The position numbers and the translations under genes were made by a program. DNA of 64,000 nucleotides. Origin: Alphaproteobacteria bacterium. Lineage in GTDB: Bacteria > Pseudomonadota > Alphaproteobacteria > Micropepsales > Micropepsaceae. Below the pieces are notes generated by a model. The model was not told the origin of the DNA. It worked only from the letters and a program-made list of their open reading frames with translations, and ran no database searches. Positions 57,202 to 62,175 of this stretch are shown in pieces. Position 1 is the first letter of the stretch. Each line of letters opens with the position of its first letter. The stretch lies in the NCBI GenBank assembly GCA_017983635.1, contig JAGOBA010000013.1, positions 1 to 64,000 on the forward strand. The letters run 5' to 3'.

Positions 57202-58239
57202 TTACGCCTTGAGCCAACCCTTGTCCTTCAGCGCAACGAACGCGAGTCCGACCTGACGATCAGTAAAGCGCCGTTTGTAGTCGCTCCAAGCATGAACTCT
57301 AGCGACGGCTTCTTGAGGCGAGCGCGCTCCCTCACGGGTCGCAACCCAGTGAACCGTCGCCAACAGCTCGAGACCGAAAGGCGTTTCGTAACCTGAAACC
57401 AAGTCCCCAACGCGCGCGAAGCGCGCCCGTGTTTCCGAATCGTTAGCAAGAAATGCTCCGGCCTCTTCAACTGCACCGGGCACTAGCTTCAGCTGCTTGT
57501 CAGGCGCATCGCCGCCATCAGCATACCCCGATATCAGATGGCCCTCGACCGCGCGCAAAACATGCCGCAAGTTCTCCGCATACGGACCGTAGTGCGCCTT
57601 TGAATAGCTAAGCCTCAAGCGTTGCCCTGCCTCTTGCATGAAATACATCAGCTTGTGCACTTCAAGCAGAGTCACGAACGGATCGAGAAGCCCGCCGAGG
57701 TACCGATTGATTAACTCAACAAGGGCCGCACGACCAGACGTCATCTCGGGAACAGCAGTCGAAGGAGTGATTGCAACACTTCCAGCGTGAGGTTCGAAGA
57801 CAATGATTTCGACACCCGATAGGCGCCCTAGCTCAACCTCAATGCGCTTGCGAACCTCGGTCCACTCCAATCCACCGAGTCCTGCGCCCAGAGGTGGGAG
57901 TGCTATGGATCGAATCTTGCGCGCGCCGATCTCGTGCGCCAACGCCTTCAGCCCCGACTCAATGTCTTCGATCCTGCTCTTGCCACGCCAATGGCGCTTA
58001 GTTGGAAAGTTGATAATGAATTTCGGATTAGTCATCGTGCCGGTTTCGAAGACGAACATTCGGCCAGGCTGAACCTCGCTGCGCTCGCAAGCCGCTGCGT
58101 AAGCTTTAAAATTAGCCGGAAAAATCTCTTTGAATTGCAGCGCGACGCCACGCCCCATCACACCGACGCAGTTCACCGTATTAACGAGCGCATCTGCGTC
58201 GATTGCAAAGAGATTTCCTGTCCGATAGTCGACCATCAT
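57202..58239 (-). CDS. darG: DarG-like macrodomain antitoxin (DNA ADP-ribosyl glycohydrolase)
   Basis: A 345-residue protein. Residues about 1-150 are a macrodomain with the DarG signature: ALVNTVNCVGVMGRGVALQF, then FETGTMTNPKFIINFPTKRH and ALPPLGAGLGGLEW. Residues from about 170 match the DarG C-terminal domain (LEVHKLMYFMQEAGQRLRLS, then YGPYAENLRHVL). DarG removes the ADP-ribose that DarT places on thymidine in DNA. The usual darT gene is not adjacent on either side. Its ATG overlaps the upstream MmeI-like frame (ATGA) and the pair has an SOS box. Confidence 0.9.
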   Translation of the reverse strand: MMVDYRTGNLFAIDADALVNTVNCVGVMGRGVALQFKEIFPANFKAYAAACERSEVQPGRMFVFETGTMTNPKFIINFPTKRHWRGKSRIEDIESGLKALAHEIGARKIRSIALPPLGAGLGGLEWTEVRKRIEVELGRLSGVEIIVFEPHAGSVAITPSTAVPEMTSGRAALVELINRYLGGLLDPFVTLLEVHKLMYFMQEAGQRLRLSYSKAHYGPYAENLRHVLRAVEGHLISGYADGGDAPDKQLKLVPGAVEEAGAFLANDSETRARFARVGDLVSGYETPFGLELLATVHWVATREGARSPQEAVARVHAWSDYKRRFTDRQVGLAFVALKDKGWLKA

Positions 58240-59078
58240 CGCACCTGTCTAATAGTACCAATTCTTGAGTATCTGGACAGTAGGCCGGTGCGCGGGCGCG
58301 CACTGACGGCCGTGTTCAACGTCTCAAATAACTGCGCCAAACGCGGACCCGTATCGCTACCGTCATCGCGCGTGCCGTTAACGAGAAGATCAAGGAAGAT
58401 ATCTCGCGGGTCGAAGATGCCGGTGTCATCTGCAAACAGGCAGAAGACCAGGCGAACCAAAAATTGCTCCAAGTCGTGGCCGGCGTATCCCGACTCCTCA
58501 AGCGCGTCATGCAATTCGCCCATCAACTCGGATGCTTTGATATTGACGGGGTCTTGGTCCTTGAAAACGCGCCGCTCTAGGCCACGAACGAAGTTGAATT
58601 TTTCGACATGCTTAGCCAGTTCGCGGAGCGCGAACTTCGCTTCCTTGCCTTCATCGAGGTCATAGAGCTCGAAGGACTGGAAGTCGCTCACCAACAGGTA
58701 GCGCGGCAGATCGTCGGACCTCAGCGACGGAAAATAATCGAGAGCCTGCTCCTTCGCCTTCTTCAGGCTACGGCCCGCACTCTTTTGCTCGACGAGCAAC
58801 ACACCACGCCAGAAGAGATCAAGGAACCCGCGCTTGTTACCCAGGCGCTTGACCGGTTCCTCGTAAGCGGCCACTTGTCGCCGTTTGACGCCGAACACTT
58901 CGAAGAAGTCGTTATAGAAGCTTTGCGTCTCACCTTTTTCGTACCGCGCGCTCTTCCAATCCTCTGCGAACTTCGCAGCGCGGGCTTTGACTTCGTTTGT
59001 ACTTAGCAAGTGTCCGACTCCCGGGATGAACGGAACACCGTCAGTTAGCCTGGGTATCTGTGGCGCTCCAGCGGTCAA
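58236..59078 (-). CDS. Truncated MmeI-like protein: nuclease and spacer region only
   Basis: A 280-residue protein matching the first third of MmeI-type restriction-methyltransferases (VKARAAKFAEDWKSARYEKG, SFYNDFFEVFGVKRR, FLVRLVFCLFADDTGIFDPR). The nuclease triad is intact: D87, nine residues, E97-Q-K99 (motif D-x9-ExK). The methyltransferase and target-recognition parts are absent. After about residue 255 the protein ends in an unrelated short tail, and the stop overlaps darG. It could be a decayed restriction gene or a domesticated nuclease regulated with darG. Confidence 0.82.
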   Translation of the reverse strand: MTAGAPQIPRLTDGVPFIPGVGHLLSTNEVKARAAKFAEDWKSARYEKGETQSFYNDFFEVFGVKRRQVAAYEEPVKRLGNKRGFLDLFWRGVLLVEQKSAGRSLKKAKEQALDYFPSLRSDDLPRYLLVSDFQSFELYDLDEGKEAKFALRELAKHVEKFNFVRGLERRVFKDQDPVNIKASELMGELHDALEESGYAGHDLEQFLVRLVFCLFADDTGIFDPRDIFLDLLVNGTRDDGSDTGPRLAQLFETLNTAVSARPRTGLLSRYSRIGTIRQVR

Positions 59079-59122: not shown

Positions 59123-59137
59123 GTTCTATATTTGTTC
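59123..59137. promoter_or_regulatory. SOS (LexA) box before the MmeI-like/darG pair
   Basis: GTTCTATATTTGTTC is a perfect GTTC-N7-GTTC, the alphaproteobacterial LexA site. It lies 45 bases before the nuclease start on the opposite strand. Confidence 0.75.
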
Positions 59138-59189
59138 CAAAATCAAGTCCCACTGAGCTGCTAGAAGTGGTCATAATGTGAACGTTGAA

Positions 59190-59525
59190 GAAGCCACCAG
59201 GCACAATTCGAACGCCCCATCCCGTCATCGCCTCGATCTCGAAATCGCGGCCGACCTCGCCACCCTGTGCCGAACGCTGGCGCTCGGCACGCCGCACACC
59301 GCTCACCGGCGAACGGCCGGCGAACGAGCTCATCGAAGCCTTGCAAAGATAGAGGCACTCAAACCCCGGCTCATCACATTCAACGGCCTCAGCTTCGACC
59401 GCCTGGCTGCGCTATCGCACCATGGCGCACGCCTTGCCCGCGCCGGGCATCGTGTGCCGCGCCTATTACAACGCTCAAGTTCAGGAACATGCGGCAATCT
59501 CCGGATCGCACTTGTGAGTTTGTAA
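59190..59525 (+). pseudogene. Remnant of a PolB-like 3'-5' exonuclease gene
   Basis: Pieces in different frames line up in order: HPVIASISKSRP, then GERPANELIEALQR, then LKPRLITFNGLSFD. After a shift near 59400 it continues AWLRYRTMAHALPAPGIVCR, ending at a TGA at 59525. The FNG-x-x-FD followed by LRYRxMxHxLPxPG is the exonuclease II region of the predicted PolB-like exonuclease family. At least two frameshifts make it inactive. Confidence 0.6.
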
Positions 59526-59596: not shown

Positions 59597-60469
59597 CTAC
59601 AACCCCGCCAGCCTGAGCCCGGCATTCGCCGCAATGAACGCAGCCGCCCCGCCAAGGGCCGCGAGGATATTCACCCCGAACCGCCGCAATGGATCGCGTC
59701 GAAAGATCGCGCGCGCCGCCGCCTTGGCATCGCGCGCCGGGTCGTTCTCCGCCGCGATGCGCCCGCCCGTGCGCGCCTCGCGCGCCGCCTTGGCGATCAC
59801 GGCCACTGCCGCGGCCGTGGCCAGCCCCACCAGCAGCAAGAGCCCCGGCGCCGGCAGCGCGCGAACGAACGCCGTGTGGCTCACCAATATGCCCAACGCC
59901 ACCGCGCCAAACCCCACAAGCGCTAAATTGATCCCGCTGCGCGAGAACGACAGCACCTCCTCCCACCAAGTCACATCTGTCTTCACGTTCATCAGCACGC
60001 GCACGGAAAAGCGCAGCCATATGCTGTCCCCGATATCGAACAACAACACCGCGGCAATCGGAAATGCGGCGATCAAGATCGCGTCGGCCGCGCCCTCGGC
60101 CCCGGGCGCGACCGGCACCAACCCCGCGGCCAGTCCCGCCGCCAACGCCATGACGACGCCCCACACCGCATCGAACACGCGGCTGCCCTTCTCGCCACCG
60201 CTCGCGCGGGTCCACGCGCCGCAATAAAGCAAGGTCAGCAGAAAGAAATGCTTCCAGTGCGGCTGAAACGAAAGCTCAAACCCGGCAAGCGCCGCTGCAC
60301 GCTGCGCCAACGGCGCGATCCAACCGACCAAAACGCGCGTCACATCCTCATAATAGGTCAACGCCAGGTCGAGCGGCGCCGCAAACGTCCCCATGTCAAA
60401 GCCATGCTTGACCAACAGCACCAACGAAAGCGCCGCGAAAACGACGCCGAACCCATTGAACACGCCCAT
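59597..60469 (-). CDS. Polytopic membrane protein of unknown function
   Basis: About 290 residues if started at ATG 60469; a TTG at 60520 is also possible. There are six or seven hydrophobic segments, and the Arg-rich C-terminal region ends with DPLRRFGVNILAALGGAAAF as a last helix. No family was recognised. An internally deleted copy lies at 61790-62020 in the same orientation. Both copies share the region upstream of the start. Confidence 0.65.
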   Translation of the reverse strand: MGVFNGFGVVFAALSLVLLVKHGFDMGTFAAPLDLALTYYEDVTRVLVGWIAPLAQRAAALAGFELSFQPHWKHFFLLTLLYCGAWTRASGGEKGSRVFDAVWGVVMALAAGLAAGLVPVAPGAEGAADAILIAAFPIAAVLLFDIGDSIWLRFSVRVLMNVKTDVTWWEEVLSFSRSGINLALVGFGAVALGILVSHTAFVRALPAPGLLLLVGLATAAAVAVIAKAAREARTGGRIAAENDPARDAKAAARAIFRRDPLRRFGVNILAALGGAAAFIAANAGLRLAGL

Positions 60470-60821
60470 ACTGGCCAGGTTAGCAACCGCAACCGCGGCT
60501 GTCGAAACACCTTCCCTCAAAGCCTGACGCGCGGTGGCACGCCTCTCGGGACACGATTACCTGCCGCCGGATGGCACACGCGCGCTGATCAACAAAGAGG
60601 ACGTCGTCAGAGGGACCTATGTCGGTTTGGTATCCGCGAACGGCCACTCCCAGCCCTGCACCGAAGTCGATGCCATCCTTGCCCCTGAACGACCCAGCCG
60701 GCCTCGGCAAGCTTCTCGTCAATCTGGTCGCGAGCCACCTGCTCAGGATTTTGGTTCTTGCTCGCCATACTTTGTTTCGAAGCCCCATTCTTTTCTTTTC
60801 ACTTGAGCGTTCGATTGCAAT

Positions 60822-60836
60822 GTTCTATCTTTGTTC
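60822..60836. promoter_or_regulatory. SOS (LexA) box before the HicA-like module
   Basis: GTTCTATCTTTGTTC is a perfect GTTC-N7-GTTC, identical in 14 of 15 bases to the box at 59123. It lies 58 bases before the first gene; an extra GTTC sits 9 bases farther upstream. Confidence 0.75.
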
Positions 60837-60844
60837 CACGCTCA

Positions 60845-60866
60845 GACATTTGTTGACAAATGTCAA
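60845..60866 (+). promoter_or_regulatory. Palindromic operator and -35 of the HicA-like module
   Basis: GACATTTGT and ACAAATGTC are perfect 9-bp arms around TG. They contain TTGACA, which is 17 bases from TACAAG; the latter would place the transcript start just before the ATG at 60894. Confidence 0.6.
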
Positions 60867-60893
60867 CAGAGCTGCTACAAGGAACACTGATCA

Positions 60894-61130
60894 ATGGGTT
60901 CCAGGCCCACGCACCCGAACAAGGAGATCGAGGCGGCCGTAACATACGCGGAAGCAAAAGGCTGGAGATACAAGGCCGCCGGAAAGTCTGCGCACGCTTG
61001 GGGGAAATTTCTGTGTCCTTTCGCAGATCGAAGCGGCTGTCACGTATTTGTCTGGTCAACGCCGAAGCGTCCGGAAAGCCACGCAAAAGAAATCCGGCGC
61101 ACCGTGGGCAAGTGCCCGCATCAACTCTAA
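60894..61130 (+). CDS. HicA-like small protein
   Basis: A 78-residue protein. HPNKEIEAAVTYAEAKGWR and the GKSAHAWGKFLCPF core with a His resemble the HicA/YcfA double-stranded-RNA-binding toxin fold, though longer and with extra cysteines. The C-terminal SHAKEIRRTVGKCP fits a family of small proteins paired with a DNA-binding partner. AAGGA lies 9-13 bases before the ATG. It is 17 bases upstream of the partner gene and both sit behind an SOS box. Confidence 0.6.
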   Translation: MGSRPTHPNKEIEAAVTYAEAKGWRYKAAGKSAHAWGKFLCPFADRSGCHVFVWSTPKRPESHAKEIRRTVGKCPHQL

Positions 61131-61147
61131 ACAGCAGAGGACGGCAA

Positions 61148-61677
61148 TGCAGGACTTCGAGTTCGCAATCATCGCTGACGGCGTCGATACAGACGACGAG
61201 ACGTTCGTGGACCGCTTTTTCGAAGCGGGCTGCGACGACGCGCTGGTGATGATCGTCAAAGGCAACGTCGTCCTGCAATTCACGCGGGAGGCATCCAACG
61301 TGGCTGAGGCGGTCGCCTCCGCAATCCGTGACGTACATCGCGCCGGCGCACGCGTGCGGCGCATCGCGCCGGATTCCTATGTCACGATCAGCGACATCGC
61401 CGAACGCTCCGGCCTCACGCGTCAGGCGATTTCGCTTTACGCGAACGCCGAGCGTGGTGCGGGCGACTTTCCGCGGCCGCTGCTGCGCGCGAATACGGAT
61501 TCGCCGCTCTGGGACTGGCTCAGCGTCGCACGCTGGCTCGACAAGAATGGGAAGCTGCCCGACGATCAATCGCTCGAATTCGCCGAACTGGTGCACGATC
61601 TGAATTTGCATTTCGAGAATCTCGACGCGGGGCCCTCAAGCCGACGCAACGTCGCCAAGCTGCTTGAAGCCGTCTAA
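61148..61677 (+). CDS. HTH DNA-binding partner of the HicA-like protein
   Basis: A 176-residue protein from ATG 61148 (GAGGAC upstream); the frame is open farther 5' but overlaps the first gene. The N-terminal half is a small alpha/beta domain (CDDALVMIVKGNVVLQFTRE). The middle is a helix-turn-helix (VTISDIAERSGLTRQAISLY, then DSPLWDWLSVARWLDKNG). It would be the antitoxin/repressor half of a two-gene module and could bind the palindrome upstream. The exact family is uncertain. Confidence 0.65.
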
Positions 61678-61789
61678 CGCGTTATTCCGGTGACACGCAA
61701 CAACCGCGAAGCACGGCAAGTCGGGTCGCCGACCCGGATTGACCAAGCCGCACGCTCAGCCTGCCCCACCGCCTTCGCGGACTTGAGCA

Positions 61790-62020
61790 GCGTAACCCCA
61801 GCTGGCGCCCCGCCAAGTACCGCGAGGATGTTGACGCCGAACCGCCGCAACGGATCGAAAGATCGCCGCGCCTCCGCCTTTGGATCGCGCCAAAACGACG
61901 CCGACCGCGTTAAAGCTCCCATGCAGGCCAGGTAACAACCGCGACCACGGCTGGCGAAACACAATCTCCCCCAAAGGTTGACGCGCGGTGGCACTTCCCT
62001 AGGGACACGATTACCTGTCA
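61790..62020 (-). pseudogene. Internally deleted copy of the 59.6-kb membrane protein gene
   Basis: The 3' part (DPLRRFGVNILAVLGGA) and the 5' part with its upstream region (GACGCGCGGTGGCAC, GGACACGATTACCTG) match the intact gene. About 750 internal bases are missing, joined near 61900. It keeps the same orientation and lies on the other side of the SOS-boxed module. Confidence 0.75.
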
Positions 62021-62175
62021 CCGCTCAAACCGCTCAATCACTTTACTTCAGGGGACGGAGTTTGTGTATCGCCTAAGCCATATACCGGCGCCCCCCGCAC
62101 CTTTGCAATTGACGCGCCCACGGGGGCTTTGAAAACTGCCGCAGGTGTGAGCGAAGGTGGGCATGCGTTCTGGTT

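Follow-up and report, generated by a model that had tools for sequence, protein, structure and literature searches.

Gene pair and genomic surroundings

The window, i.e. the whole 64,000-nucleotide stretch of alphaproteobacterial DNA analysed here, contains two small genes on its forward strand, preceded by a LexA-type (SOS) box and a palindrome. Gene A (60894–61130) encodes 78 amino acids and gene B (61147–61677) encodes 176. A sequence-only reading of this DNA had described them as coupled; they are adjacent, 16 nt apart, but do not overlap. Both matched PADLOC profiles near full length (PDC-M06A, E = 3.8e-26; PDC-M06B, E = 2.4e-33), PDC-M06 being a two-gene phage-defence candidate of PADLOC. 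Among the PHROG families, A corresponded to phrog_5923 and B was best matched by phrog_2620, while searches of A and B against Pfam, NCBIfam and PDB sequences returned nothing at significance or cut-off. The locus thus shares with PDC-M06 two adjacent genes matching both profiles. PDC-M06 is a pair of profiles only, and what is said here about operator and LexA box comes from the present comparison. A search of open PMC full text yielded no paper naming PDC-M06. In the following, A is treated as a candidate toxin and B as a candidate antitoxin and repressor.

Upstream of the pair, the open reading frame list contained a reverse-strand gene of 307 amino acids (59597–60520) with no match in the family search. 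A decayed, internally deleted copy of this gene flanks the pair at its other end (61806–62023); the two terminal parts are 80% and 84% identical. The A–B pair is thus placed as if between tandem duplicates (59645–60569 and 61806–62023). A first LexA-type box (GTTCTATATTTGTTC, 59123–59137, forward strand) belongs to a separate unit and its target gene is uncertain. It may serve a unit made up of a DarG antitoxin gene (57202–58239, reverse strand; NCBIfam NF048014, E = 1.8e-135) and a short MmeI-type restriction gene (58236–59078), the latter having MmeI_N and MmeI_hel domains only and being overlapped by the DarG start by 4 bases. On the 3′ side of the same box lies a remnant-like frame (59178–59525, forward strand), which by eye we take to be like a PolB-type 3′–5′ exonuclease (LKPRLITFNGLSFD).

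Distribution of the pair

Of 50,697 phage records, three carried a relative of A and three a relative of B (two of the latter representing the same phage, SSU5); the corresponding numbers among 72,556 plasmid records were 233 and 280, the matching records being mostly enterobacterial. A preceded B in SSU5 and Cyrano, both phage-plasmids, as well as on plasmids from cyanobacteria, Polymorphobacter, Cupriavidus and Pantoea, and this order was retained at all loci where both genes were placed, including those of other alphaproteobacteria. Of 385 genomes of the class, 13 carried A (one of them by a weak and partial match). PDC-M06B was detected in 12 out of 289, where four matches were confined to the HTH part and one to the N-terminal part, and in none of 14 control genomes. 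B was found in 5/60 genomes of the family and in 3/11 of the genus, the genome under study included. Scans of viral contigs with P0002 and with the A protein of locus L028 gave no match. This patchy spread is the pattern of a mobile cassette, as judged by these comparisons. In SSU5 and Cyrano the pair is situated between recombination-type genes and the gene for DNA polymerase III alpha, and similar neighbours were seen in three plasmids (L190, L191 and L195) from E. coli and Enterobacter.

In Cyrano, the genes CYRAN_51 and CYRAN_50, which are HicA and HicB by annotation only, proved to be homologues of A and B and share the operator described below. Neither a GTTCN7GTTC nor a CTGTN8ACAG box was present within 200 bp of the Cyrano pair, which the available text of PMC9928086 lists among prophage 'morons'.

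A conserved palindrome upstream of gene A

The sequence-only reading had pointed to a perfect 9-bp palindrome with TTGACA and had named 60845–60866 as the stretch on which to test binding of the HTH protein. The palindrome is present (GACATTTGT-TG-ACAAATGTC, 60845–60864), and TTGACA occupies 60853–60858. Comparison across loci revealed a different, overlapping element as the conserved unit, namely GTTGACAAATGTCAAC (60852–60867), which follows the plan GTTG-N8-CAAC and takes the form GTTGACA-AA-TGTCAAC in the window. The palindrome first pointed to overlaps the conserved unit, as does the stretch named for binding, but is not itself that unit. From 73 loci with gene A we derived 41 non-redundant ones (80% identity over 90 bp upstream). 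All eight fixed bases of GTTG-N8-CAAC were found in 24 of the 41 and seven of eight in a further 6, compared with an estimated 0.05 or so perfect sites expected in total if all bases are taken as equally frequent. Because these loci share ancestry, they do not amount to 41 independent trials. In 27 of the 30 loci with a site, the operator started 29–54 nt upstream of the start of A. The best match in each of the remaining 11 loci was no better than in shuffled sequence. Several of them look by eye like operator variants, e.g., GTTGACAGATGTTCAC in L004. A plasmid of Mycobacterium intracellulare (L193), from another phylum, has the 16-bp sites GTTGCGTACTCGCAAC and GTTGTATACTCACAAC of the GTTG-N8-CAAC plan before a broken A and a whole B.

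Two forms of the inner operator occurred, ACA-NN-TGT and TCAATTGA, and TTGACA was kept in both. Inspection by eye showed a −10-like hexamer 17 bp after TTGACA in Cyrano (TAGAAT) and Pantoea (TACAAT), and in SSU5 TATTAT stands 17 bp after TTGACT. The window has TACAAG at this distance from the operator TTGACA. Since TTGACA lies inside the operator with a −10-like hexamer at 17 bp, the site would overlap the −35 element of a possible promoter, which is the usual position of an antitoxin's own operator. GTTG-N8-CAAC is probably the operator of protein B. We refer to the putative proximal promoter as P2 (60853–60881, forward strand; TTGACA at 60853–60858, 17 bp, TACAAG at 60876–60881). Its geometry was seen by eye in relatives, and its −35 is located inside the operator. 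A putative distal promoter, P1 (60803–60831, forward strand), consists of TTGAGC (60803–60808), 17 bp and TATCTT (60826–60831), agrees with 8/12 consensus bases and has its −10 inside the LexA box. Both are weak by consensus: a strict scan of 60700–61750 (9/12 consensus bases) returned no promoter and missed P1 as well as P2. A terminator scan of the same interval also returned none.

LexA-type boxes in the window and in the genome

The box upstream of the pair, GTTCTATCTTTGTTC (60822–60836, forward strand), differs from the first box, GTTCTATATTTGTTC, by a single base, in agreement with what had been read from the sequence. The Caulobacter LexA consensus is given as (T/A)TGTTC-N6-TGTTC in the available text of PMC13384398. 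Together with the preceding AT (60820–60821), the 60822 box is a full match to WTGTTC-N6-TGTTC (60820–60836), and the 59123 box with its preceding bases fits this consensus as well.

Within the window, GTTCN7GTTC was not enriched (3 occurrences vs. 2.53 expected from shuffles). Across the whole 4.59-Mb genome, the pattern GTTCTNTNTTTGTTC occurred 47 times with at most one mismatch (24 + 23; 19 exact), whereas the reversed pattern was absent (0 + 0). The weight given to this class of boxes stems from the whole-genome count (47 vs. 0) and not from that in the window. The genome contained one lexA-type and one recA match above the family cut-offs, and both genes were preceded by related boxes. 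With distances measured from start codons assigned in this analysis, lexA had GAACN7GAAC on the coding strand 62 nt before its presumed start and GTTCN7GTTC at 36 nt, and recA had GAACN7GAAC on the coding strand 134 nt before its presumed start. When the box centre was taken as a −10 element, a −35 element matching at least 4/6 bases was found 15–18 bp before it in 24 of the 47 boxes, whereas 200 rounds of shuffling gave 6.4 on average and 13 at most; the same geometry on the other side of the boxes was seen in 3/47. The box at 60822 displays this arrangement (TTGAGC-N17-TATCTT, with 4/6 bases in both the −35 and the −10), and the −35 at the 59123 box reaches merely 3/6.

The idea that both window boxes go back to one ancestral promoter was tested by alignment. 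The 60 bp downstream of the two boxes aligned with a score of 30 (P = 0.0036 against shuffles; P = 0.0020 when compared with 60-mers drawn at random from the window), but the best of the 45 other genome boxes scored 27.5 against each of them. This weak likeness stems partly from the common GAGCTGCTA, and the 60 bp upstream did not match (P = 0.68). A common origin of the two promoters is not established by these comparisons and is put forward as a lead rather than a result.

Conservation of the box across the family was rejected: GTTCN7GTTC was found within 150 bp upstream of A in 3 of the 41 loci, namely the window, L004 and L006. The latter two are sister loci with identical boxes and differing spacers behind them; as read from their open reading frames, their pair lies in a prophage head module, behind a portal-like and ahead of a capsid-like gene. 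In the nearest congener (L030, B 66% identical), TTGCAA-N17-TATACT takes the same place, and only the first half of the box is kept. Because most relatives, including this congener, have no box, capture of the locus by LexA, which the sequence-only reading had also considered, is a better fit than an ancestral box. By this comparison, the LexA box is a local addition.

A dispersed element associated with some boxes

Twelve of the 47 genome boxes were followed by one repeat motif, so that not every box counts as a LexA target of its own. These belong to a dispersed noncoding element of the genome (G000), in which a LexA-type box and a TTGA(C)-like −35 are followed by about 25–36 nt, often a hairpin by eye, and then by CGGCTGCAACTTGAA (examples outside the window: L131, L139, L158, L162, L171 and L175). 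CGGCTGCAACTTGAA had 11 exact copies in the genome, and 14 copies of the element were aligned. A sequence-only model built from 12 copies of this genome found 16 matches in it and also matched nine of the 11 genus genomes. Scanning 18 loci against Rfam at the gathering score left the element without a match and detected one tRNA elsewhere; a sub-threshold mir-250 hit overlapped the L184 copy. No consensus fold was predicted. The element is a candidate for an SOS-driven multicopy small RNA family. Behind another group of boxes, repeats such as CGTTACAAGTTACGGC or AACGGATTCATAACGG were seen by eye (L123, L134, L138, L159, L167, L168, L169 and L173).

Predicted folds of proteins A and B

Protein A was modelled as a helix, three strands and a helix (pLDDT 87). 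Foldseek searches of A and B against the PDB gave no match below E = 0.001, and dsRNA-binding domains were among the weak matches of A. Re-ranking of the Foldseek candidates for A with VIA-align (198 chains) placed HicA toxins (dsRBD-like fold) from four HicAB complexes in the first four positions (Z = 5.1, 4.9, 4.3 and 4.2; 54–60 residues aligned). Unrelated chains followed closely (Z = 4.0, 3.8 and 3.6), so that the lower HicA matches are tied with them, and the HicA likeness appeared with VIA-align only. Trp24, His34, Cys41, Thr56, Pro57, Ala64 and Cys74 were invariant in all 18 aligned A proteins, none of which matched the Pfam HicA family (PF07927). A profile comparison with ten HicA proteins (hhalign) yielded a probability of 3.5%, which is not significant, in the expected register; eight column-shuffled controls and one reversed control ranged from 0.04 to 0.91%. 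In this alignment, of 3.5% probability, His34 falls into the HicA register. A is thus predicted to have a HicA-like fold (alpha-beta3-alpha) without detectable sequence homology. Given a structure list headed by HicA together with a non-significant profile match, we think that A may work like HicA, but we do not file it as HicA.

Protein B was modelled (pLDDT 89) as a ferredoxin-like domain (residues 1–75; beta-alpha-beta-beta-alpha-beta) followed by an HTH domain. The ferredoxin-like domain, with the invariant residues Gly28 and Asp31, had metallochaperones and Lrp-type regulatory domains as its best structural matches. Residues ~75–135 resembled the HTH of MerR/BldC/AlpA-type proteins in the structural list and, weakly, by sequence. 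HicB was absent from the five Pfam families of the window protein and from the 25 families listed, out of 28, for 18 B proteins, and a comparison with the HicB profile (hhalign) gave a probability of 1%. Nor did it appear in the structural list for B, an absence that does not rule out the RNase-H-like HicB fold.

The available text of PMC2701414 describes HicAB as a small toxin with a larger partner of DNA-binding type, spread on plasmids and phages. The present pair resembles HicAB (PF07927/PF15919) in having a small first protein (here with a conserved His and a predicted alpha-beta3-alpha fold), a larger second protein of DNA-binding type, and an occurrence on plasmids and in phages. In contrast to HicAB, no sequence homology was detected for either protein, A has additional invariant Cys residues, and B is predicted to consist of other domains.

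Asymmetric loss of A and B

If A were a toxin and B its antitoxin, disruption of A with retention of B would be expected more readily than the reverse. Among 84 loci, redundant copies included, five had a disrupted A and a whole B: A contained an in-frame stop in L030 (L047 being the same gene) and a stop in L066, was frameshifted in L026, was split across two frames in L193, and had suffered an internal replacement in L195, where the operator was kept. The one candidate for the reverse was L025, in which A was whole and B was recognisable in its N-terminal part only. Several loci were left apart from the count of broken A and whole B: L190 and L191, where A is gone and the start of B is replaced; L044 and L045, where A is whole and B matched the profile up to position 115 only; L009 and L019, which overlap within a single genome and contain two B-type genes but lack A; and L014–L018 and L198, with no A and a partial B. 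The asymmetry of loss is as expected of a toxin (A) and an antitoxin (B), judging from the reading frames, and it would also fit B having a use of its own.

Interpretation of the locus

The sequence-only reading had proposed a damage-responsive toxin–antitoxin-like module, which our sequence comparisons and models support as an interpretation, because the pair is conserved, its promoter palindrome is conserved, the model of A suggests a HicA-like fold, A is lost with B kept, and the LexA-type box is able to serve as a −10 element. We consider it likely that the locus is a type II toxin–antitoxin-like module of the PDC-M06 family with its own operator and an added DNA-damage control. Several results stand against this assignment. 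The strict scan of 60700–61750 yielded no promoter, the LexA box occurs in only 3/41 loci, with half of it left in the nearest congener, and 12/47 genome boxes belong to the repeat family. Operator matches at 11/41 loci do not exceed those of shuffles, A lacks a Pfam HicA match, neither protein has a Foldseek match below E = 0.001, B is unlike HicB in sequence, and in L025 it is A that is whole. The sequences themselves, the conserved pair with its operator, the box class in the genome and the unequal loss of the two genes are shown directly, and the folds of A and B are predicted by the models.

From here we infer how the promoters, toxicity, RNase activity, binding partners and damage response might fit together. 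A would be an RNA-cleaving toxin, as its predicted fold suggests, and B an antitoxin that represses P2 by binding GTTG-N8-CAAC over the −35. Without damage, LexA would close P1, and B or an A–B complex would close P2. Upon damage, RecA would trigger cleavage of LexA, P1 would open and A and B would be made. A might then be freed if B were limiting or degraded, the outcome being set by the stability of B, and free A would slow growth during damage or phage attack. A comparable arrangement is known from higBA of Caulobacter crescentus, which, according to the available text of PMC13384398, is repressed by both LexA and its own antitoxin, the LexA site being specific to one lineage. Both cases concern an alphaproteobacterial toxin–antitoxin promoter region with a LexA site, restricted to a lineage, as well as an antitoxin site, presumed in the present case. 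The toxin and antitoxin families are different, however, and LexA and HigA act there on one promoter, whereas two putative promoters are proposed here.

Among the alternatives, a phage-derived regulatory pair fares best, although we rate it as rather improbable. B would then be an excisionase- or AlpA-like regulator of its own and perhaps other operators, and A a non-toxic partner that modulates B or binds RNA. Such a role would agree with the annotation of phrog_2620 ('excisionase and transcriptional regulator'), with the AlpA-like annotation of B in SSU5, with the likeness of its HTH half to MerR/BldC/AlpA-type proteins (structural list; weak by sequence) and with the persistence of B without A in the plasmids L190, L191 and L195. 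It does not readily account for A and B being kept together in unrelated neighbourhoods and on plasmids of several phyla, nor for the invariant residues in the N-terminal domain of B (Gly28, Asp31) and in A (His, Cys).

Somewhat less probable still, in our view, is a LexA box that is irrelevant to the pair, being one of many scattered SOS-type promoters that came to lie upstream by chance. That 12/47 boxes sit in a dispersed repeat element, that most relatives have no box and that P1, with 8/12 consensus bases, escaped the strict scan would all be in line with such an accident. Yet the downstream motif of the repeat is missing at 60822, no terminator-like site was found in 60700–61750, and L004/L006, a separate lineage, likewise carry a box in this region; moreover, the chance of one of 47 boxes in 4.59 Mb falling within a given 150 bp is an estimated ~0.15%. 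A true HicAB system, in which A would be a HicA of the usual kind and B a HicB that has diverged, is the least probable, because the predicted fold of A and the annotation of the Cyrano genes as 'HicA toxin protein' and 'putative antitoxin HicB' (in the available text of PMC9928086) are opposed by the absence of a Pfam HicA match for A, of HicB among the Pfam families listed for B and of a profile match for either, and by the predicted ferredoxin-like and MerR-like make-up of B.

Returning to the toxin–antitoxin-like module, a broader proposal is possible, which we advance tentatively and with less confidence than the assignment of the locus itself. The family might constitute a toxin–antitoxin class of its own, in which a HicA-fold toxin with extra invariant cysteines is paired with an antitoxin of ferredoxin-like and MerR/AlpA-like HTH domains. 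This class would range over plasmids of cyanobacteria and mycobacteria as well as phage-plasmids, would for the most part use one GTTG-N8-CAAC operator, and would apparently have been wired to LexA twice in alphaproteobacteria (in this chromosome and in the L004/L006 lineage), forming a damage- or phage-triggered growth-arrest switch.

Conclusions

PDC-M06 was already known as a catalogued candidate, and the Cyrano pair had been annotated as HicA/HicB (PMC9928086, in its available text). The present analysis adds a probable operator, a predicted domain composition for B, an asymmetry in gene loss and a likely link to the SOS response. Taken together, these turn a nameless two-profile defence candidate into a testable system with a proposed toxin identity, a repressor site and a possible trigger. 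As the pair lies beside recombination genes in SSU5 and Cyrano, it can be tested in common laboratory bacteria. If the interpretation is true, a HicA-like toxin fold would have been paired with an unrelated antitoxin. In that case, a mobile toxin–antitoxin cassette would also have gained SOS control by one upstream box while keeping its own operator.
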